Source: Leptospirillum ferrooxidans C2-3 (GTDB lineage: Bacteria > Nitrospirota > Leptospirillia > Leptospirillales > Leptospirillaceae). Taken from it: DNA of 64,000 nucleotides. The stretch lies in NCBI RefSeq assembly GCF_000284315.1, contig NC_017094.1:961486-1025485 (forward strand), read 5' to 3'. Positions 10,495-45,877 of this stretch are shown piece by piece; positions within the stretch are counted from its first letter, which is position 1, and every line of letters begins with the position of its first letter. A program made the translations under genes and the position numbers. The notes beneath the pieces were generated by a model, which ran no database searches, was not told the DNA's origin, and saw nothing but the letters and a program-made list of their open reading frames with translations.

Positions 10495-11245
10495 GCCAGG
10501 GAGCATTGATGGGGCGACCCTCTATGGCGTCAGCGTCGGTCCCGGTTCTCCGGATCTCCTGACCATTCGTGCATTGAGGATCCTTGAGAGTGTTCCAACG
10601 ATTGCCTACCCCAAAAGTGTTTCGGATGGTGGCTCTCAGGCCAGGGATATCGTTTCGGAATACATCGCGGCGAGAACGGTTGTCCCACGGATTGTCGAGC
10701 TTGTTTTTCCGATGACCAAGGATGAAACCATCCTTGAACAGGCACGTAATGAAAATGCGAGGCTCCTGAGTGAGTCCCTGGCACTGGGGGATGTTGCCTT
10801 TATCAGCATCGGGGATATCCTTTTTTATTCGACCTTTGGAAACCTGCTGACGGGGCTTAAGAAAGTGCTTCCTTCCCTGAAGGTATCCGTGGTCCCTGGA
10901 GTGACCTCGTTTAATGGTGCCGCAGCCAGAATTGTCGAACCCCTGGTGCAGGGTTCGGAAAGCTTCGCGGTGATTCCAGCGACTTACGAGGCGAGCCATC
11001 TTGAAAAGATGATCGATCTTCACGAAACCGTTGTTTTTATGAAAATCAACAGGGTGATCCCATCACTTCTGAAGATGCTTGACGAGCGTGGCCTTTTGCC
11101 CAAATGTCTCTACCTTGAACATGTCGAGACATCTCGGGAACTGGTTATCCGGGATGTCCGATCCCTCCTGGGTCGGGAGATTCCTTACATGTCCCTTTTG
11201 ATCCTTCGGAAAAACGGATGGGGGGATCATGGCAAAGCGTCCTGA
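10481..11245 (+). CDS. cbiL: Precorrin-2 C20-methyltransferase (CobI/CbiL)
   Basis: This SAM-dependent methyltransferase adds the C-20 methyl group to precorrin-2 (or its cobalt form) early in corrin ring building. It shows the tetrapyrrole methylase fold: LYGVSVGPGSPDLLTIRAL at the N-terminus, the SIGDILFYSTF loop, and VVPGVTSFNGAAA. Length is 254 residues, as usual for CobI/CbiL. The start at 10481 sits behind GGAAGGAGAGTG inside the end of the YacG-like gene. It overlaps the next gene by 17 bases. The aerobic and anaerobic routes cannot be separated from this gene alone. Confidence 0.92.
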   Translation: MKGSEPGSIDGATLYGVSVGPGSPDLLTIRALRILESVPTIAYPKSVSDGGSQARDIVSEYIAARTVVPRIVELVFPMTKDETILEQARNENARLLSESLALGDVAFISIGDILFYSTFGNLLTGLKKVLPSLKVSVVPGVTSFNGAAARIVEPLVQGSESFAVIPATYEASHLEKMIDLHETVVFMKINRVIPSLLKMLDERGLLPKCLYLEHVETSRELVIRDVRSLLGREIPYMSLLILRKNGWGDHGKAS

Positions 11246-11768
11246 TCTTCCCGGACAGATTGAGTCTCTTCGTTTTGTCGACATGATCCTTCTCCGGTTT
11301 TCGGCGATATGGGCCCTTTTGGGGTTCGGAGGGGTTTTTACGATCACCATGATCCATTTCTCAAAAGGGGACCTGACGCTTTCCCCTGTTTTCAACGGGA
11401 TGGCGGTCGGTCTGGGCGCGGCGCTTTTGGGTCTTGGTCATTCCCGTTACCAGTATTACCTCCTTGAACTGGACCCCGGTCGGTATGCGGGGCTTTATAA
11501 AAGAATCAAGGGAGGTCAAGGTCTTTTTGGCGGTCCGGTCAAGGGGGGGCTTTCCATTCCGCCCCACCCTTTTCGAAAAGTGGTGGCCTTTTCCTATCTG
11601 ATGGGAGTGATGACATTTTTTCTCGTCATCGTTCTCTTGTGGGGGCAACTTTCCGTTGTGAGTGCATTCTTTTACGGGGTGGGTGGATTCTATCTTGCAA
11701 GGGTTGTCTTCTGGAAAAAGGCATTGGCGTTATACAAGGAACAGGGAATTGATTGGGAGGAGTCATGA
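11229..11768 (+). CDS. Hypothetical integral membrane protein in the cobalamin run
   Basis: No family was recognised. The 179-residue product has about four hydrophobic spans, near residues 20-42, 53-70, 113-133 and 138-156, separated by a basic loop (YAGLYKRIKGGQG). It overlaps cbiL by 17 bases and cobM by 4 bases, so it is very likely co-expressed with them. Possible roles are help with cobalt or intermediate transport, or membrane anchoring of biosynthetic enzymes. No transport motif (such as CbiM or CbtA/CbtB histidines) is visible, so this is context-only inference. Confidence 0.7.
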   Translation: MAKRPDLPGQIESLRFVDMILLRFSAIWALLGFGGVFTITMIHFSKGDLTLSPVFNGMAVGLGAALLGLGHSRYQYYLLELDPGRYAGLYKRIKGGQGLFGGPVKGGLSIPPHPFRKVVAFSYLMGVMTFFLVIVLLWGQLSVVSAFFYGVGGFYLARVVFWKKALALYKEQGIDWEES

Positions 11769-32258: not shown

Positions 32259-33692
32259 ATGCAGACCGGCAAGCGCTTCCGTGCGTATCCCACTCCCGCC
32301 CAAGAAAAGATCTTGCTTCAATGGATCGGACACCAGCGGTTCATTTACAACGCCAAGGTGTCCGAAGACCGGTATTACCGGGCCTTCGCCAAAAAAGCGG
32401 TCTCTCTTTCGGGAACGCCCGTTCCCGTCGACCAGGAGTACGCCCGGTTCATCGGACCGGAGACCTCCTGGCTCCGGGAGGTTCCCTCCCCGATCCTCCG
32501 CAACGGGGCAGTCCGGTGGAAACAAGCCTACGCCCGCTTCTTTTCCGGCCTGGCCCGGCGGCCCACGTTCAAGGGGAAGGACGGACGGCAGTCGGTCTGG
32601 ATCACCTCCGAACTGTTCTCCTTCCGGACCAACGATGAAACGCAATGCGGAGAACTGATTCTGGGAACAAAGAAATTCCCGCTCGGGGTTCTGTCCTTCA
32701 AGGCCCAGACCCCGTATTCCCGTCCCGCCTCGCTTCACGTCTCGGTCGAGGCGGGGAAGTGGTTCATCTCCTTCTCCTCGGAGGATGGACTCCCGGAACC
32801 GAAGGAGGAGGACACGGTCTCCTGGCTCCGGATGTTTTCGGAAGAAGAGCTTGAGGGCAAAACCCTGGGCTTCGACCGGGGCGTGACGATTCCGGTGATG
32901 GCCAGCTCCGGCCGGAGAATCGACTTTTCCGACATCCAGAAGGCCCGGATGGAGAAAAAGGAACGGACACGGAAACGCTGGCAACGAAAACTCGCCCGGC
33001 AACAAAAAGGGTCGCAGAACCGGAAGAGGACGAAACGACGCTTGGCCCGGTCCTTCGAGTATGCCAAGAACGTCCGCAAGGACGTGATCCACAAGGCCAC
33101 CCGCGACCTTGTGTCCGATCCCGACCGGACCCTTTTCGTTGTTGAGGATCTCAAGGTCAAAAACATGACGAGGAGCCCTGAGCCGAAAAAGGACGAATCC
33201 GGACGGAATGTCCGGAACGGAGCCCGCGCCAAGGCCGGACTCAACTGGGCGATCCTGTCGTCCTGCTGGGGTCTGTTCGTGGTGCTCCTGTCCTACAAAG
33301 CCCGGAGATCCGGAAAGCTCGTCATCAAGGTCTCTCCTCAATTCAGTTCGCAGGAATGCGCCCGGTGCGGGCACATTCATCCGGACAACCGGCCTTCCCA
33401 GGCCGGGTTCGTCTGCCAGCGCTGTGGACTCGCGGACAACGCCGATCTCAACGCCAGCCGTGTCATCGCCAAGAGGGGCATTCGTCTTCTTCTGGAAGGG
33501 AAAGTCCCGCAGAAGACGATTCGGCGGTGCGGGATCGGAAAACTCAAAACACTAGGGCCGGAACGGTCCGAAGTCAAAGCCTCCGGAGAGGACGATAAGA
33601 CGCGAAGGACCAAACGCCTTCGCGCATCCTCGGCGAAAGAGGAACTTCCGCTCGCGAGATCGGAAACCCCTCCTACAGCGCAAAGCGCTTAG
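32259..33692 (+). CDS. tnpB: TnpB, RNA-guided nuclease of the IS605 type
   Basis: TnpB is the ancestor-type relative of Cas12 and uses an RNA from the element's right end to cut DNA. The 477-residue protein keeps all three RuvC acidic residues: D in LGFDRGVTIP, E in LFVVEDLKVKNM and D in DNADLNASRVIAKRG. It also keeps the zinc ribbon CARCGH/CQRCG. The N-terminus has the helix-turn-helix start FRAYPTPAQEKILLQWIG. The stop codon lies inside the right-end hairpin, as expected where the guide RNA overlaps the 3' end of the gene. Base composition is GC-richer than the neighbours, consistent with transfer. Confidence 0.93.
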   Translation: MQTGKRFRAYPTPAQEKILLQWIGHQRFIYNAKVSEDRYYRAFAKKAVSLSGTPVPVDQEYARFIGPETSWLREVPSPILRNGAVRWKQAYARFFSGLARRPTFKGKDGRQSVWITSELFSFRTNDETQCGELILGTKKFPLGVLSFKAQTPYSRPASLHVSVEAGKWFISFSSEDGLPEPKEEDTVSWLRMFSEEELEGKTLGFDRGVTIPVMASSGRRIDFSDIQKARMEKKERTRKRWQRKLARQQKGSQNRKRTKRRLARSFEYAKNVRKDVIHKATRDLVSDPDRTLFVVEDLKVKNMTRSPEPKKDESGRNVRNGARAKAGLNWAILSSCWGLFVVLLSYKARRSGKLVIKVSPQFSSQECARCGHIHPDNRPSQAGFVCQRCGLADNADLNASRVIAKRGIRLLLEGKVPQKTIRRCGIGKLKTLGPERSEVKASGEDDKTRRTKRLRASSAKEELPLARSETPPTAQSA

Positions 33693-34768: not shown

Positions 34769-36058
34769 CTACTGCTGTAACCGTTCGATTCCCAAAGCTT
34801 TCAGCATGTATTTTTCGTAGATCGGTTCAGAACTCCCTGTTTTCATCTTTCTGATGAAGTATTTTTCAAAGGCGATTTTTGCCAGATGAACCCATTTGCC
34901 CTTTTTCATCCAGGCGACATTTCTGGGGGGGATCTGGGGAAGCGCTACGAATGCTGCTCCGGTGTCTCCCATATCGGCAAGACAGATCGCATTCCATGTG
35001 CCCTTTGTGTCGGGTTCCCGTCCTTCAATCTCCGCCTTGATGTTATGGACGATAGCGGTCACCATCGATTCGATCATGTAGCCTGTTTTGGGTGTTCCTG
35101 TCGGAACGGGGGTTGTCTCAACCGGTGGAATGGCGACACATACTCCGGCTGAATAGATATTCTTGTAGGCCTTGCTTCTCTGGTAGTCATCGATGATGAC
35201 GAAACCACCCGGATTGACCATGTCGGTCACGGCTGCAACGGCCTTGTTGCCCCGGAAAGGCGGAATCATCATGGAATACTTGAATGGAATGTCGTGGGTC
35301 CGGATCGTATTCCCGTCTTGTCCCACCTCCTCGACATGCATCATCTGGTCTTCAACCTTGGTGACCTTGGCATTGGTAATCCACTTGATGTCCTGATTCC
35401 TGAATTCGGATTCCAGCAAACCCTTGGAGTCCCCGACCCCTCCAAGCCCCAGATGTCCAATATAGGGTTCGCTTGTCACAAATGTCATGGGAACCTTGTT
35501 TCTCATCCTGAGCTTTCGAAGGTGACGATCAAGAATAAACGCATATTCATAGGCCGGCCCAAAGCAGCTGGCTCCCTGAAAGCTTCCGACAACGACGGGG
35601 CCGGGGTTTTTTAAAAACTCTCCCAGTTTTTCGTAGGCCTTTTCGGCGTGATCGACCGAACAAACCGATTGGGTAAATCCCTCTGGGCCGGCACCCTCGA
35701 TCAGGTCAAAGGCCAGTCTTGGTCCTGTTGTGATGACGAGGTAGTCGTATCGGATGATCTCTCCATCGATAAGCTCTATGGAGTTTTCTTTTGGTTTTAA
35801 TGCGACTGCTGCCTTTGCAATGAATGTGATCCCTTTCTTCTCAAGATAGGGTCGAATCAGAAAAGTGGTATCGGCGCGTGTTCGCCACCCAACCGCCACC
35901 CATGGGTTTGATGGGACAAACTGGAAAAAGTCATAAGCATTGATGACGGTCACATGAACCTTCTTTCCCAACGTGGATGCCAGTTCATATGCTGCCGGCA
36001 TTCCGCCCGTTCCGGCGCCCAATACTACAATTTCCTTGACCTGGCTCGATATTGTCAT
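34769..36058 (-). CDS. sqr: Sulfide:quinone oxidoreductase, acidophile type
   Basis: SQR is a membrane-associated FAD enzyme that oxidises sulfide to sulfane sulfur/polysulfide and reduces quinone. The 429-residue protein has the FAD motif VVLGAGTGGMPAAYEL and the three cysteines typical of the family: SVCSVDHAEK, GASCFGPAYEYAF and SAGVCVAIPP. The stretch PPVETTPVPTGTPKTGYMIE closely resembles what I recall of Acidithiobacillus SQR. An amphipathic, basic C-terminus (FIRKMKTGSSEP) fits membrane attachment. The start at 36058 has GGAGG seven bases upstream; a longer frame reaches 36121. It is the last gene after cydA-cydB-cydX, so its quinol product has an oxidase made by the same operon. Confidence 0.92.
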   Translation of the reverse strand: MTISSQVKEIVVLGAGTGGMPAAYELASTLGKKVHVTVINAYDFFQFVPSNPWVAVGWRTRADTTFLIRPYLEKKGITFIAKAAVALKPKENSIELIDGEIIRYDYLVITTGPRLAFDLIEGAGPEGFTQSVCSVDHAEKAYEKLGEFLKNPGPVVVGSFQGASCFGPAYEYAFILDRHLRKLRMRNKVPMTFVTSEPYIGHLGLGGVGDSKGLLESEFRNQDIKWITNAKVTKVEDQMMHVEEVGQDGNTIRTHDIPFKYSMMIPPFRGNKAVAAVTDMVNPGGFVIIDDYQRSKAYKNIYSAGVCVAIPPVETTPVPTGTPKTGYMIESMVTAIVHNIKAEIEGREPDTKGTWNAICLADMGDTGAAFVALPQIPPRNVAWMKKGKWVHLAKIAFEKYFIRKMKTGSSEPIYEKYMLKALGIERLQQ

Positions 36059-36150
36059 GTGAATTCCTCCATTTTGGCTATTGTGAACCTGATTTGATCC
36101 ATAACACTTTTCCGGATCCATGACCCGGATTCTGGCAAGAAGAAGTCTTG

Positions 36151-36279
36151 TCAGTACTTCCCATCAACCCTCAATCGATCGATCGTGACCTGGTCTTCCT
36201 GTATCTCAAACCACAGCGCATGCATCACCGAAAGGGTAACAGCCATCGTAACCCCCACAATCCATACGAAATACCACAT
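36151..36279 (-). CDS. cydX: Cytochrome bd small subunit CydX, 42 aa
   Basis: This single-span peptide begins MWYFVWIVGVTMAVTLSVMH, the CydX/YbgT pattern (MWYFxWIxG in E. coli), with a charged C-terminal tail. CydX stabilises the CydAB hemes. GGAAGGAG lies eight bases before the ATG, and the start is 17 bases after the cydB stop. It is short and easily missed. The tail (EIQEDQVTIDRLRVDGKY) is somewhat longer than in E. coli. Confidence 0.9.
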   Translation of the reverse strand: MWYFVWIVGVTMAVTLSVMHALWFEIQEDQVTIDRLRVDGKY

Positions 36280-36296: not shown

Positions 36297-37433
36297 TTAA
36301 TAAAGAGTGTGTTCTTCCCGTTGGACGGATTCCACGGTGATCGGGCCCCGAAGCACCCAGTAGGCCCAGCTTGTATAAATGATGATGATTGGCGTGAGAA
36401 TGACGGTTGCCCAGAACATCACCAGGAGTGTCAGTCGGCTCGAGGTGGCGTCCCATGCGGTGAGAGAGGATCCCGGATCAAGGCTCGAGGGCAAAATAAA
36501 AGGGAAAAGAGAAACGGCAGCGGTCAGGATCACACCCACTCCTGTCAGGGTTGATCCGGTGAAGGCGAGTCTGCCATTTTTGAACCACCCTCCCAGAAAG
36601 GCAAGACAGCTTCCTGCCAGAACGGTGATGACAATCCCCCAGAGGTTCGGATGCGCATGGAAGTTGTTGAGCCAGGCACCCTGTTCCCGGACCACGGTCT
36701 TGGCAAGGGGATTCGGCATGTCCTGGGGGCCGGGGCCGGAGAGGATCCTGTATCCCGGGATGCGGACAACCCAGAGGCCGATAGCCGCATAAAGGACTCC
36801 GGTACAAACAGAGAGATATCGGACAGCCTTTGAAGCCCGTTGGTGAAGGACCGATTGGGTCCTCATCATAAGGTAGGCGCCACCGTGGAGCGAGATCATG
36901 CAAAGGGAGAGGATTCCAGCAGCAAGTCCGAACGGGTTCAGCAGCTCCCAGAAGCTTCCTTCGTAGAAAGATCTCATGAGGTTGTCGAGTCGAAAGGGAA
37001 CACCTAGAAAGAGGTTTCCCAGTGCGACGCCAAAAACGAGGGCCGGAACGGTTCCTCCTATAAAAAGACCTGTGTCCCAGAATAATCTCCATTTGGGGTT
37101 TTCAATCTTGCTCCGATAATCGAATCCCACCGGCCTGAAAAAAAGGGCCCACAGCACCAGAAGCATTGCCACATAAAATCCCGAGAAGGCGGTTGCATAG
37201 ACAATGGGCCACGCTGCGAAAAGAGCTCCACCAGCGGTGATAAACCAGACCTGGTTCCCTTCCCAGTGGGGACCGACACTGTTCAGTAGGACCCTCCGTT
37301 CGATATCGCTTTTTCCGATCCACGGCAGAAGAAATCCGATCCCCATGTCGAATCCGTCCATGATAAAAAATCCCGAGAGCAGGAGAACGACCAGTCCCCA
37401 CCAAAGCTCTTTGAGCATTCCGTAGTCAAACAT
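36297..37433 (-). CDS. cydB: Cytochrome bd oxidase subunit II
   Basis: CydB is the second membrane subunit of the quinol oxidase that reduces O2 to water without proton pumping. The 378-residue length equals the E. coli protein. Family blocks are visible: [20 protein letters not shown] near the N-terminus, [20 protein letters not shown], and [12 protein letters not shown]. The start at 37433 (MFDYGML) has AAGGAG upstream and overlaps the end of cydA by 8 bases. It is followed directly by cydX. Confidence 0.95.
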
Positions 37434-39012
37434 GGATGTCTCCTTTTTCAAGCATTCCGGAAACGCCCTTTTGTGTGTCGGTTTCAGAATAGAGTTCTGA
37501 TACGGGGCCAATTTTGGCGTATTTTCTCATCAGGCCCAGCTCGACAACCAGAAGAACCGTGTAAAAAAGTGTAAATCCCGCGAGTGAGAAGACGAGACTT
37601 TTGGTTGTCAGGGATGAAGTGGAGAGAAATGTGGGGAGAACGCCGTAAATGGACCAGGGTTGTCGTCCATATTCCGCGACGAACCACCCAAGCTCGCTTG
37701 CGGCATAGGGAAGGGGTATGGAGAAAATGGCGAGTTTCAAAAGCCATGTTTTTTTGTCGCACCGGCTTTTGCCCGAATAGTAGAAAGAGGCAGCAAAAAG
37801 GGCCAGAAAGAAAAATCCAAGTCCCACCATAGCCCGGAATGCCCAAAATAACGGTGTCACTCTGGGGATGGTGTCCAATGCAGCCTGATGGATCTGTTCA
37901 GGTGTCGCAAGAGCCACGTCTTGTCTGTATTTTTTCAGTAAAAGTCCAAAACCAAGATTTTCCTTTTCAGCCATGAACTCTGCTCTGAGAGTCGCGTTCT
38001 TGGGGTCCTTCCGGAGTTTTTCAAGTGCGGTGACCGCGAGAATGCCCTTTTTGATCTTTGCCTCGTTGGAAACCACGATTTCCTTGATCCCGGGAATGGG
38101 CGTGTCATAGGTGCGGGTGGCGATCAGCCCAAGCGCCCAGGGAATCCTGATCTGGAAATCATTCTTCATGTTTTTCTGATCGGGAATGGCAACAAGATTG
38201 AAGGAAGCGGGTGCCGGTTCGGTCTCCCACATGGCCTCCATCGCGGCAAGCTTTGTTTTTTGTCCAATGCCATCGAGGTAGCCGGACTCATCTCCCAGAA
38301 TGATCACGGACACTGTGGCGGCAAGACCGAACGCCGCTGCGATGCGAAAGGATCGTTTGGCCACTTCGAAGTGTCTCTTTTTGAGGAGGTACCAGCCGCT
38401 GATTCCCAGAACAAAACAGGATGCGGTCACATAGCCTGCGCTTACGGTGTGGACAAACTTGGCCTGGGCTGTGGGGTTCAGGAAGAGCTCCCAGAAACTG
38501 TTGACCTCCATTCTCATGGTATCCGGATTGAACTGGGCTCCCACAGGGTTCTGCATCCATCCATTGGCCACCAGAATCCACAGCGCCGACAGGTTGGTGC
38601 CGGTTGCAGTCATGATGGTGGCAAAAAGATGTCCGCCCCTGGACAGGCGGTTCCACCCAAAAAAGAACAGTCCCACAAAGGTGGATTCGAGAAAAAAGGC
38701 CATCAGACCTTCAATTGCGAGGGGGGCTCCGAAAATATCTCCCACATAATGGGAATAATAGGACCAGTTCGTTCCGAACTCGAACTCCATGGTCAGACCT
38801 GTCGTAATGCCCAGTGCAAAATTGATTCCAAAGAGTTTTCCCCAGAATTTTGTCATTTCCTTGTAGACAGGCTTACCTGTCATGACATAAACGGTCTCCA
38901 TGATGACCAGAATGTAGGTCATGCCCAATGTCAGCGGAACAAAAAGAAAGTGATAAAGGGCCGTGATGGCAAACTGCAAACGGGACAGATCCACTAAGCT
39001 CTCGGTTGGCAT
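37426..39012 (-). CDS. cydA: Cytochrome bd oxidase subunit I
   Basis: CydA holds hemes b558, b595 and d and the quinol site. The 528-residue protein shows [20 protein letters not shown] with the heme b595 histidine, [51 protein letters not shown] with the b558 histidine, and [13 protein letters not shown] with the b558 methionine. [13 protein letters not shown] matches the conserved GRQPW motif. It appears to be the long Q-loop form. The start at 39012 has GAGGAG seven bases upstream. A perfect sigma-54 promoter lies 47 bases before it. bd oxidases are known to resist sulfide, which fits the downstream sqr. Confidence 0.95.
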
Positions 39013-39058: not shown

Positions 39059-39074
39059 AGCAATAGTGGTGCCA
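39059..39074 (-). promoter_or_regulatory. Sigma-54 promoter of cydA-cydB-cydX-sqr
   Basis: On the minus strand the sequence reads TGGCACcactaTTGCT. This matches the -24/-12 consensus (TGGCAC, five bases, TTGCW) at every position. Transcription should begin near 39047, about 35 bases before cydA. The divergent gene encodes a GAFTGA-type activator, which such promoters need. Confidence 0.85.
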
Positions 39075-39126: not shown

Positions 39127-39173
39127 TGTCAAAAATGGCATATAGTGTTCAGATTGGCATGTCAAAATTGACA
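39127..39173. promoter_or_regulatory. Tandem dyad sites, probable activator-binding (enhancer) sites
   Basis: TGTCAAAAATGGCA (39127-39140) and TGTCAAAATTGACA (39160-39173) are related dyads of the form TGTCA-N4-TGnCA. Their starts are 33 bases apart, close to three helical turns. They lie 50-115 bases upstream of the sigma-54 promoter, the normal enhancer distance. The second overlaps the ribosome-binding site of the activator gene, which would allow autorepression. Confidence 0.5.
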
Positions 39174-40741: not shown

Positions 40742-43700
40742 ATGGATAAGACGACAGGCCTCGAACCATCCGGAAAAGGGCGTCCGGAAGGACACAACTC
40801 CCTTCCTGTTGTCGTTGGAGTCGTTGCCTCGGCAGGGGGGCTCTCCGCATTTGCCGAGTTTTTAAAAGGAGTTCCACCCGATAGCGGACTGTCTTTTGTG
40901 TTTCTGCAACATCTTGACCCCTCCCATGAAAGCGCTCTTTCCGAAATCCTTCAAAAGGGAACATCTCTTCGCGTTCTTTCCATCGGGTCTCCGGTTCGTC
41001 CAAAGCCGAACCAAATCTATGTCATTGCTCCGGGAACATCCCTTGTTATCCGGAACGGGGTGCTCTCCCCGTCGACGCTTGATGAGGATCAGTCCCATCA
41101 GCAGCATCTTTTTGACCACTTTCTGGAATCCCTGGCCTCCGATCAAAAAGATCGGGCGATTGGGGTCATTCTCTCGGGCGCGGGTTCGGATGGGGCGGAT
41201 GGGTTGTCTGCCATCAAGAGAAATGGTGGAATAACTTTTGCCCAGGATGATTCAGCCGTATTTCCATCAATGCCCCAAAGTGCCATTTCCGCAGGGTCGG
41301 TGGACTTTATTCTCCCGCCTTTCCTGATCGTCCAGAAGATCCTCTCGCTTCGCCAGTTGGATGGAGTTTGCAGGGATGGATCTTTTGCAATCCCTTCCGG
41401 CGAACCTTCCCCGGATGAGGGTGAAGACATCAAATCCGTTCCGGATGGCTACCGGCGGATTGTTGCCTTTCTTCAACTCCGCACCGGGGTCGATTTTTTT
41501 CTCTACAAGTCCCGCCCATTACTTCGTCGGATCTCCCGGAGAATGCTTCTTTCAAACCGGAAGGACCTGCCGGATTATGCCGATTTTCTGGAAACGGATG
41601 CCGGAGAGCTCGAAGCCCTTTTTTCGGACATTCTTCTGGATGTGACCTCTTTTTTCAGAAATCCCGCGGTGTTTCAGAAGATTGCCGATTCCGTTATCCC
41701 GCGCTTTCTGGCCGGCAGGCCGGGGGAAATGATCCGGGTATGGGTTGTTGGCTGTTCCTCTGGCCAGGAAGCCTACTCTCTTTCCATTCTGTTGACCGAG
41801 TTTTTTGAGAAACAGGCTCTCCCTGCCCAATTCCAGATTTTTGCCACCGACCTGAATGAGGATCTGTTGAGGATAGCCCGTGCCGGTTTCTATGAAGACC
41901 GGTTGATGGACGGGGTGTCTTTTGAAAGGAGATCCCGTTTTTTTACCCGGGAGGAGGGGGGGTATCGGGTTTCGGGGCTCATTCGCGACAGGATTGTGTT
42001 TGCCCGCCACAATATCCTGAAGGATCCTCCCTTTTCAAGGATGGATCTTGTCTCTTGCAGAAATCTTCTGATTTATCTGGACACGTTTATCCAGAACAAG
42101 GTGATTCGCCTGTTTCATTATGCCTTGTCCGAAAATGGCTGTCTTCTTCTCGGTCTTTCCGAGTCGGTCGGCGCCAATTCCCGTCTGTTTCTTCCGGAAG
42201 AGAAAAAGCTGAAAATCTTCTGGAAAAAAAAGATCAAGGGTTCAGTACGAATCCCTGTTTCCCCCAAGTCTCCGGGGTTTGACCCCATCAGGAAGGGCAA
42301 TGAGGGAATCCTGGACCTTCTGCCCGCATGGAAGGCGGAGAAGGAGGTCGCGAGAATACTCATCGGGGAATATGCTCCTCCGGGCGTGCTGGTCAATGAC
42401 CAGCTGGAAATTGTCCATTTCTTCGGATCGACGACGGATTTTTTGTCCCCGCCTTCAGGAAAACCCAGTCTAGATCTCTTCTCCCAGTTGAAACGGAGCC
42501 TGGTTCCCCAGATCAGGGTTCTTCTCTCCAAAGTCCGCAGTGAGCATCAGACTGCGATCAGGGAACGTGTCGGACTCCATCGTGATGATGGGGATATCCT
42601 TCTGACACTGAAGGTCATTCCTCTCAAAAACCTGCCAAGTCCCTATTTTCTGATCCTTTTTGAGAAAGAAGGAGAGACGGAAAAAGGTCGTACCTCGCGC
42701 TTCCATGGGCCTGGCTCCAGCACCAAGCCTCTTGTGGCCGATCAGGCGCTTTCAAGGATTGCCTTTCTGGAGTCGGAGCTTCTGGAGACACAGGATTATC
42801 TGGATTCCCTGAAGGAGCAGCACCAGTCGGTTATTGAAGAGCTTCAGGCGACAGGAGAGGAGGTCCAGTCCGCCAATGAAGAACTTCAAAGCACCAATGA
42901 GGAAATCGAGACTTCGAACGCTGAACTGGAATCGGCTAATGAAGAGCTCTCGACGATCAATACCGAGCTTTCCGAGCGCAATGCCGAACTTCTGCGCGTC
43001 AACAATGATCTGGAAAATCTGTCCGTGAGCATCAATACAGCCATTCTGGTGGTCTCCCGGGATCTGCTCCTCAGGAGTTTTACCCCCATGGCCGGAAAGC
43101 TCTTCAATCTCTCGGTTCTGAACGGAGCAAAGGTCCTCGAAAGGATCGGATGCGAGGTGGATTGTCCCGATATGGAATCGTTCGTCTTGAAGGTTATTCG
43201 TGAGGTTCAGGTTTCCGAGCGGGAAATCAGGGATCATGAGGGGAGAGTCTATCTGCTTCGGGTTCGTCCCTATATGACCGATGATAACAGGATCGATGGG
43301 GCTGTCCTGGTCTTTTTTGACATTACGACGATCAAGGAACATGAACTGGAAATTTCGCGGCGTGAATATGAGATTGAAATGGTTTTTAACGCCGCTCCTG
43401 TCGGGTTTTCGGTCCTCAACTCCGATTTCCGGATTGTCATGGCAAACCAGTCCTTCCTGAAAATGTTCGAGTATTCTTCCGGAGAGATTCTCGGCAGATC
43501 TGTTTTTGATCTGGAGTCCGGAGCGTTTGCCAAAGGGAACCTTCAGAGTTTTTTACATGGCTCGATTGCGGAAAACAAGCCGATCGACTCTCTCAAGTTC
43601 ACCTATGTGAGCGAGAAGAAAGGAGTCCGCACCCTTCTCGTTTCGGGTAACCGTCTTGATCCTGACGATGCGTCTCCCAAGCGGATCCTTTTGTCGGTCG

Positions 43701-45877
43701 AGGACATTTCTGAAAAAAATGAAACCATGGAGCTCGATCGCCTGAATACGGATCTTGATGCCCTGGTCTTATCCGGGACAACGCTTGAGGGCATCATGGA
43801 TCTGCTCTCCGAGCGGATGGAATCGATCTACTACCCCTCCTGTATCTGCATTTCAAGACGCGATGATGATCATTCCATCGGCTTTCATTGCGTTCGGGGA
43901 AAGAACTCTTTTCTGGTCGCCTCCTTTCTCCGGAAAAATGCGATGCAGAAAGATTCTGTCATTGAGTGGGAAAGTCTTTTCTTTCATAAGGAGAGGGATC
44001 ATCGCCGGTTCCTGATTTCCGAATTTCCGAAGACATCGAGCTACCGAAGGCTACTGGCCCAACACGGCGTTCAGGAAATCCATGGCTTCCCCTTTGAGAG
44101 GGAGAGTCAGGGCCGTTCCCTGAAAGGCGTGGTTCTTCTCGGATTCGAACGATTGGATTCCCTGTCGGGAAGTTCGATCGATCGCATCTGTCATACGATC
44201 AATCGTTTCCTGATCCTGGTGGAGCACTTCGGGGAACAGGAGACCCTTCATCTTCAAAATACCGCCTTGAACCTGGTGCCGAACGGAGTTCTGATCACCG
44301 ACCCCGATCGAAAGATATTGTGGGTGAACAAGGCCATGAGCGAGCTGTCAGGCTATTCGGACAAGGAGCTTGTGGGTCAGACTCCCCGCATCCTGCATTC
44401 CGGGAAGCAGGACAAGGAGTTCTACCAGATGATGTGGGAGACGATCCGCTCCGGAAGGATCTTTGAGGGAAGGATTGTCGACCGGAGGAAAGACGGATCC
44501 TTCTATACGGTGGAAACGGTGATCATCCCCATGATGGACAGTGACGGGACGATCACCCATTATGTGGGGGTCCAGAAGGATGTCAGGGATTCCCTCACCG
44601 GTCTTTTGAACAGGACATCGTTGAATGATCGTCTCCACATGGAAATTGAGAGGAATCTTCGGCTCAAAAGCTCTTCCATTGTCTTTTTCCTCGATATAGA
44701 CGGCTTCAAGACGATCAATGACACCATGGGACATGAGGTTGGTGACCGGCTCCTTCAGGAGATGGGTCTACGGATTTCAAGCGTCATCCGGACTTCGGAC
44801 TTTGTGGCAAGGTGGGGAGGAGATGAGTTTGTCCTGGTCATGACCGATGTGGTCGATCTCGCGACGGTGGCCCCTTTTGCGGAGAAACTTCTCTCAGTGA
44901 TTTCCAATCCTCTGGAAATCGATGGAACGGTGATTCATGTGACCGCTTCTGTCGGCATTGCCATTTCTCCCAGAGATTCCGCAAGCGTCGGGGATATCCT
45001 GAAAAAGTCGGATATCGCGATGTTCCAGGCAAAGGCTCATGGGAAGAATACCTGGAAGATCTTCGATCTGGCGATGGAGTCGGAGATCCGGGAGCAGTAC
45101 GAGCGGGAGCGGGCCCTCCATGAAGCCATCACGTCCGGTCAGTTCCGTCTGTTTTTTCAGCCCCAGATCAATGTGCTCAACGATCGCATCGTTGGCGTGG
45201 AGGCTCTTGTCCGATGGGATCATCCGACGGAAGGGCTCGTTCTTCCCGGTCGCTTCATTCCTCTTGCGGAAAGAACCGGTCTTATCATTCCGCTGGGAGA
45301 ATGGGTCCTGGAGGAAGCGTTCCGGACGATTGAGCGATGGATGAAGGCCGGATTTTCCCGTATCCGGGTCGGGGTCAATGTCTCGGCTTCCCAGTTCTGG
45401 CATCCGCCTTTCTGGGAAAATCTTGAACGTCATTTCGAAGCCAATCCGGAATTGGCCTTCTGGCTGGATCTTGAGCTTACGGAAAGTGTTTTGCTGAAGG
45501 ATCCGGCTGAGGCGGCAAACCTGATCCTGAAGATGCGGATGCTTGGTGTCCGGATGACCCTTGACGATTTCGGGACAGGATATTCCTCCCTTTCCTATCT
45601 GTCGGAGCTGTCGCTTGATGCGATCAAGATCCCCCAGGAGTTTGTGATTCCGATGCATGACAGTCTTCCCAAGACCAATCTTGTGAAAACGATTGTCCAG
45701 ATGGCGAGGATCCTGAACCTTGATCTGGTGGGAGAGGGAGCGGAGACAATGGAGGATGTGGAGATGCTGAGCCTTTTCGGATGCGCCGTGATCCAGGGGT
45801 TTGCGCTGTCGAAGCCGTTGCCTCTTGCCGATGTCGAGAGCTTTATCTGTGAAAAATCCGGAAAGGTCCTGCCCTAG
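40742..45877 (+). CDS. CheB-CheR-PAS-GAF-PAS-GGDEF-EAL fusion, 1711 aa
   Basis: Domains in order are as follows. A CheB methylesterase (about 20-205) has Ser in VVASAGG, His in LQHLDPSHES and Asp in GAGSDGADG. A CheR SAM methyltransferase (about 230-500) has FFRNPAVF, VWVVGCSSGQEAYSL and VSCRNLLIYLD. A coiled coil of repeated EEL/ANEELQST heptads spans about 665-755. Two PAS domains (about 755-995), a GAF-like region (about 1000-1170) and a third PAS follow. The GGDEF domain (about 1290-1445) has RWGGDEF and the RTSD inhibition site. The EAL domain (about 1460-1705) has EALVRW, ELTES, LDDFGTGYSS and QGF; the usual KID is KIP. Cyclase and phosphodiesterase motifs are both present. No membrane span is seen. 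The ATG lacks a close ribosome-binding site, with GAGGTGG about 15 bases upstream. Confidence 0.88.
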   Translation: MDKTTGLEPSGKGRPEGHNSLPVVVGVVASAGGLSAFAEFLKGVPPDSGLSFVFLQHLDPSHESALSEILQKGTSLRVLSIGSPVRPKPNQIYVIAPGTSLVIRNGVLSPSTLDEDQSHQQHLFDHFLESLASDQKDRAIGVILSGAGSDGADGLSAIKRNGGITFAQDDSAVFPSMPQSAISAGSVDFILPPFLIVQKILSLRQLDGVCRDGSFAIPSGEPSPDEGEDIKSVPDGYRRIVAFLQLRTGVDFFLYKSRPLLRRISRRMLLSNRKDLPDYADFLETDAGELEALFSDILLDVTSFFRNPAVFQKIADSVIPRFLAGRPGEMIRVWVVGCSSGQEAYSLSILLTEFFEKQALPAQFQIFATDLNEDLLRIARAGFYEDRLMDGVSFERRSRFFTREEGGYRVSGLIRDRIVFARHNILKDPPFSRMDLVSCRNLLIYLDTFIQNKVIRLFHYALSENGCLLLGLSESVGANSRLFLPEEKKLKIFWKKKIKGSVRIPVSPKSPGFDPIRKGNEGILDLLPAWKAEKEVARILIGEYAPPGVLVNDQLEIVHFFGSTTDFLSPPSGKPSLDLFSQLKRSLVPQIRVLLSKVRSEHQTAIRERVGLHRDDGDILLTLKVIPLKNLPSPYFLILFEKEGETEKGRTSRFHGPGSSTKPLVADQALSRIAFLESELLETQDYLDSLKEQHQSVIEELQATGEEVQSANEELQSTNEEIETSNAELESANEELSTINTELSERNAELLRVNNDLENLSVSINTAILVVSRDLLLRSFTPMAGKLFNLSVLNGAKVLERIGCEVDCPDMESFVLKVIREVQVSEREIRDHEGRVYLLRVRPYMTDDNRIDGAVLVFFDITTIKEHELEISRREYEIEMVFNAAPVGFSVLNSDFRIVMANQSFLKMFEYSSGEILGRSVFDLESGAFAKGNLQSFLHGSIAENKPIDSLKFTYVSEKKGVRTLLVSGNRLDPDDASPKRILLSVEDISEKNETMELDRLNTDLDALVLSGTTLEGIMDLLSERMESIYYPSCICISRRDDDHSIGFHCVRGKNSFLVASFLRKNAMQKDSVIEWESLFFHKERDHRRFLISEFPKTSSYRRLLAQHGVQEIHGFPFERESQGRSLKGVVLLGFERLDSLSGSSIDRICHTINRFLILVEHFGEQETLHLQNTALNLVPNGVLITDPDRKILWVNKAMSELSGYSDKELVGQTPRILHSGKQDKEFYQMMWETIRSGRIFEGRIVDRRKDGSFYTVETVIIPMMDSDGTITHYVGVQKDVRDSLTGLLNRTSLNDRLHMEIERNLRLKSSSIVFFLDIDGFKTINDTMGHEVGDRLLQEMGLRISSVIRTSDFVARWGGDEFVLVMTDVVDLATVAPFAEKLLSVISNPLEIDGTVIHVTASVGIAISPRDSASVGDILKKSDIAMFQAKAHGKNTWKIFDLAMESEIREQYERERALHEAITSGQFRLFFQPQINVLNDRIVGVEALVRWDHPTEGLVLPGRFIPLAERTGLIIPLGEWVLEEAFRTIERWMKAGFSRIRVGVNVSASQFWHPPFWENLERHFEANPELAFWLDLELTESVLLKDPAEAANLILKMRMLGVRMTLDDFGTGYSSLSYLSELSLDAIKIPQEFVIPMHDSLPKTNLVKTIVQMARILNLDLVGEGAETMEDVEMLSLFGCAVIQGFALSKPLPLADVESFICEKSGKVLP

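Follow-up and report, generated by a model that had tools for sequence, protein, structure and literature searches.

The window analysed here, a 64,000-nucleotide stretch of the Leptospirillum ferrooxidans C2-3 genome, carries a -24/-12 element in front of cydA, which raises the question of whether a cytochrome bd oxidase is placed under sigma-54 control at this locus and, if so, which activator and which signal would govern it. Sigma-54 control had been proposed in the original prediction, and this part of the interpretation is supported comparatively by the presence of rpoN, a divergent activator gene, paired palindromes, conservation and co-absence among relatives. It was nevertheless incomplete, as the activator gene, the sqr gene within the operon and the likely signal were not mentioned. 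We propose, with a probability of roughly 0.8, that sigma-54 polymerase transcribes a cydA-cydB-cydX-sqr operon from this site and that the divergently encoded FisR senses polysulfide and switches on sulfide:quinone oxidoreductase (SQR) together with cytochrome bd. The features on which this reading is built are listed in Table 1.

Table 1. Positions of the regulatory elements and genes of the cyd locus within the window.
Feature	Position	Strand	Basis or remark
-24/-12 sigma-54 promoter, TGGCACCACTATTGCT	39059-39074	minus	pattern match and conservation in nine family genomes
Candidate enhancer palindrome B, TGTCAAAAATGGCA	39127-39140	strandless	centre ~85 bp upstream of predicted cydA start
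Candidate enhancer palindrome A, TGTCAAAATTGACA	39160-39173	strandless	centre ~118 bp upstream of predicted cydA start
FisR-type sigma-54 activator, 447 aa	39181-40524	plus	PAS, AAA+ with GAFTGA, Fis-type HTH
cydA, cytochrome bd oxidase subunit I	37426-39012	minus	PF01654, E 2.9e-172
cydB, subunit II	36297-37433	minus	TIGR00203
cydX, small subunit	36151-36279	minus	PF08173, TIGR02106
sqr, sulfide:quinone oxidoreductase, last operon gene	34769-36058	minus	3sz0-like

The promoter string was found on the predicted strand and at the predicted place, with no mismatch to TGGCAC-N5-TTGCW and with the GG-N10-GC core present. Its description as a full consensus holds for this form of the pattern, but not for the longer TGGCACG-N4-TTGCW, to which it has one mismatch. 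The distance to the cydA ATG (39012-39010) was counted as 46 bases rather than the 47 originally given. Transcription of cydA is predicted to start at ~39048, giving a 5' leader of ~36 nt, and the gene has a good ribosome site (AGGAGA). Within the window this is the sole match to the sigma-54 pattern at one mismatch or fewer, a tolerance at which shuffled sequences yield 1.31 matches.

A short pattern of this kind can arise by chance, in which case cydA would be read from a sigma-70-type promoter. Given the base composition, chance should produce 0.07 exact matches in a stretch the size of the window and 2.9 in the whole genome; taken by itself, the string is modest evidence, and its context has to decide. 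A pattern search of the whole genome returned six exact sites, against none for the reversed pattern, and flhF and nifH, both usual sigma-54 targets, lie downstream of two of the other five (the genes being judged from their translations). The site in question is located, in the correct orientation, in the 168-bp gap between cydA and the divergent activator gene, and it is conserved with 0–3 mismatches at the matching place in the nine family genomes that carry this activator. It is this position and orientation, this conservation and the presence of flhF and nifH among the other sites that lift it above chance. No sigma-70-like site directed towards cydA was found in the gap; the only one detected points to the activator gene, and such sites are no commoner in the gap than in shuffled sequence. 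We rejected the reading as a chance string, which we consider very improbable, on the conservation of the element and on its absence where the activator is absent. The -24/-12 element is real, with conservation and context carrying the case, and the comparison of genomes speaks strongly for sigma-54 control of the operon.

The operon would then depend on the sigma factor itself. The absence of rpoN had been named in the original prediction as the finding that would speak against it; the gene is present in the genome (210.8 bits). Outside the window, a 387-aa ORF (G000:C1:575954-576445; L002 1183-2346) matches the sigma-54 DNA-binding domain with 36.9 bits, and its end resembles a GIY-YIG nuclease stretch; it is possibly a second, degenerate RpoN-like protein.

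The transcription unit read from the -24/-12 site consists of cydA-cydB-cydX-sqr and not of cydAB alone. The cytochrome bd set is complete, with subunits I, II and X all found, and cydB begins 8 bp before cydA ends. The last gene was listed as an ORF starting at 36121; of the two starts, 36058 is preceded by the better ribosome site. Its product matches the solved SQR 3sz0 over the full length (E 1.5e-172), and the cysteines of the three usual motifs (SVC, ASCFGPAYE and GVC) could be read from the sequence. None of the genes checked around the operon appeared to encode a persulfide dioxygenase.

The identity of the divergent activator was examined through its domains, its relatives and its neighbours. 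Profile searches identified PAS, sigma-54-interaction and HTH_8 domains, with the GAFTGA loop in the AAA+ part. The NCBIfam models for NifA, NorR, NtrC and ZraR scored far below their cut-offs and matched only from about residue 127 onwards, leaving the sensory domain uncovered; these identities were rejected. A sequence search of the PDB with the activator returned relatives of the AAA+ and HTH parts only, with no solved relative of the PAS domain. This domain carries a cysteine triad, C59-X10-C70-X6-C77. The Cupriavidus pinatubonensis HN-2 protein (L113) shares ~46% identity with the window activator over its length and has cysteines at exactly the equivalent places (53, 64 and 71). The triad was kept in 92 of 93 FisR-type loci, the one exception having been clipped at the first cysteine during extraction. 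In a quick tree with long outgroup branches, a support of 99 was obtained for the split between the FisR-type proteins and nine further activators encoded by this genome; the window activator fell with the characterised FisR and clustered with eight relatives from its family, also with a support of 99. The activator also adjoins a sulfide-oxidation gene, as sqr belongs to the divergent operon. Directly downstream of fisR lies a gene (40742-45877, plus strand) for a 1711-aa fusion of CheB, CheR, PAS, GGDEF and EAL domains.

Activators of this class act from enhancers, and two palindromes of the form TGNCAN4TGNCA, 33 bp apart, were located between fisR and cydA. They are the only perfect pair of this pattern in the genome, the next best pair having two mismatches. 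Their distances from the predicted cydA start fall in the usual place for sigma-54 enhancers, and their spacing corresponds to about three helical turns. An alignment of the gap across the nine family genomes showed both palindromes at a near-constant spacing of ~31–33 bp, with imperfect copies in some genomes. Palindrome A abuts the activator ATG and palindrome B overlaps the weak sigma-70-like site directed to fisR (itself no better than chance), and autorepression by FisR is therefore possible as well. TGNCAN4TGNCA is the predicted FisR binding sequence and could serve to search many proteobacteria for FisR targets.

A comparison of 21 genomes of the family, most of them incomplete drafts, was performed to observe which parts of the locus occur together. 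FisR was found in nine genomes and cydA in 16, and FisR, the palindromes and the promoter were common to all nine. At two mismatches or fewer, the promoter was detected in eight of these nine (the ninth having three mismatches) and in none of the seven cydA-bearing genomes without an intact FisR. SQR was present in eight of the nine genomes with FisR versus none of the 12 without it (Fisher 4e-5, a value that ignores relatedness and the incompleteness of the drafts). Individual genomes illustrate intermediate states. G100 (L146) has kept FisR and the promoter, and behind its cydX sqr matches only as short fragments (~10933-11299), so that the gene looks broken. An N-terminal FisR fragment remains in G021 (L173); G012 (L169) retains 38 residues of SQR and a fragment with weak HTH similarity. 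In G001 (L167), whose CydA is 91% identical, one palindrome is kept and the start of the CheB-CheR-type fusion gene again lies close to cydA, but no FisR is encoded between the two.

Within the family, FisR therefore tracks sqr and not cydA: FisR, the promoter and sqr come and go jointly, and cydABX stays. This pattern points to sulfide, rather than oxygen, as the signal. The same sigma-54 promoter and divergent activator could in principle answer to oxygen or redox state, nitric oxide or metal stress through the same cysteines, for example by disulfides or a bound metal. Cytochrome bd also makes cells resistant to nitric oxide, the conserved PAS motif includes histidines that could bind metal, and at other loci ccoG-like and globin genes lie opposite FisR-type genes. 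The tracking of sqr in the family argues against such a route, as does the agreement of the triad, in number and spacing, with the polysulfide-reactive cysteines of the Cupriavidus FisR, and we regard it as unlikely. SQR and cytochrome bd are probably made only when sulfide is around.

The persistence of cydABX in relatives that lack FisR, sqr and the sigma-54 promoter indicates that the oxidase has a use other than with sulfide and that other promoters serve it in those relatives. A second, FisR-independent promoter might for this reason also be present in the window, keeping a basal level of cydAB for quinol respiration, with sulfide-induced expression from the sigma-54 promoter on top of it. 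This arrangement is compatible with the preferred reading and does not exclude it; no such promoter was recognised in the 168-bp gap, and we consider its existence rather doubtful.

To place the locus in a wider context, 91 FisR loci, mostly from Proteobacteria, were surveyed, with the palindrome sought in the 140 bp preceding the activator gene. The palindrome preceded fisR in 59 loci versus 1.4 expected, and a control pattern was found in none. A divergent sigma-54 site with two mismatches or fewer occurred in 35 of the 91, versus 2.5 expected. The enrichment of both elements is strong but uneven. Besides the window's family, beta- and gammaproteobacteria (Pseudoalteromonas among them) have FisR genes divergent to a bd operon, and the cyd neighbour, followed as a label on the tree, changed at least six times on well-supported branches. 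Where a proteobacterial fisR is divergent to cydA, a clear sigma-54 site was found at only five of 21 loci, and the sigma-54-cyd wiring is consequently not evident everywhere.

Other members of the FisR family have different neighbours. At L113, and likewise at the C. metallidurans locus L057, persulfide-dioxygenase-like and SQR-like genes lie divergent to the FisR gene, and six further FisR-type genes are divergent to globin genes or ccoG/FixG-like genes (L088, L117, L111 / L074, L091, L103), several of these loci carrying the palindrome or a sigma-54 site that is nearly perfect. The globin locus L088 also has a rhodanese. With ccoG-like or globin genes as neighbours, some members may respond to another signal, and the role of the family may extend beyond sulfide oxidation. 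It is about an even bet that FisR and TGNCAN4TGNCA constitute a switch, present in at least two phyla, that ties oxidase choice to reactive sulfur through sigma-54, with pdo-sqr as one of its branches. If true, the choice would involve bd and, in places, the ccoG or globin genes. Four loci, from Cupriavidus laharis, Stagnimonas, Herbaspirillum and Rugamonas (L105, L119, L122, L136), have a FisR-type gene near both a persulfide-dioxygenase-like gene and cydAB, and so join the pdo and cyd layouts.

The FisR of Cupriavidus pinatubonensis reportedly goes back to Li et al. in 2017. According to the papers describing it, this protein senses reactive sulfur via three conserved cysteines (PMC9774590), forms a C53-C64 tetrasulfide (PMC8614764) and, like the Acinetobacter FisR, drives pdo-sqr via sigma-54 (PMC7315123, PMC8614764). 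The window activator resembles it in architecture, 46% identity, the C-X10-C-X6-C spacing, divergent layout, sigma-54 and an SQR-type target, and differs in that the target is cydABX with a 3sz0-like SQR instead of pdo-sqr. The FisR of A. baumannii is likewise a sigma-54 activator divergent to a sulfide-oxidation operon; unlike the window protein, it lacks the regulatory cysteines and still answers to sulfide (PMC7315123), which means that possession of the triad does not establish what is sensed. Sulfide raises cydAB in several bacteria, A. baumannii among them, but there cydAB is not reported in the FisR operon (PMC7315123). The closest layout is that of a Pseudoalteromonas xiamenensis plasmid (NZ_CP099918, L058), an uncharacterised locus in which a FisR-type activator is divergent to cydP-cydAB-cydX; unlike that of the window, its gap has no clear -24/-12 element. 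No direct link between FisR or sigma-54 and cytochrome bd was found in a 2025 survey of sigma-54 regulons, and no precedent for tying either directly to this oxidase was found in the literature searched, in which subscription journals were sparsely covered. FisR, SQR, cytochrome bd and sigma-54 are known components and their proposed direct wiring is apparently new, although priority is not certain on account of this sparse coverage.

Taken as a mechanism, FisR would bind the two TGNCAN4TGNCA palindromes 85–120 bp upstream of the predicted start. Arriving sulfide would be oxidised to polysulfide or persulfide (sulfane sulfur), with which the PAS triad C59/C70/C77 would react, probably through a C59-C70 polysulfide crosslink comparable to the Cupriavidus C53-C64. 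The AAA+ ring would then spend ATP to open the sigma-54 polymerase complex at the -24/-12 site, and SQR and cytochrome bd would be made together. SQR would pass the electrons of sulfide to quinone, and a sulfide-resistant bd, a property known for the E. coli enzyme (PMC9774590), would oxidise the quinol with oxygen. The locus offers a concrete, testable way in which sulfide could induce a sulfide-resistant oxidase together with the enzyme that feeds it quinol. Elsewhere in the window, a plus-strand gene (32259-33692) encodes an IS605 OrfB/TnpB-like protein with OrfB_IS605 and Cas12f1-like domains.
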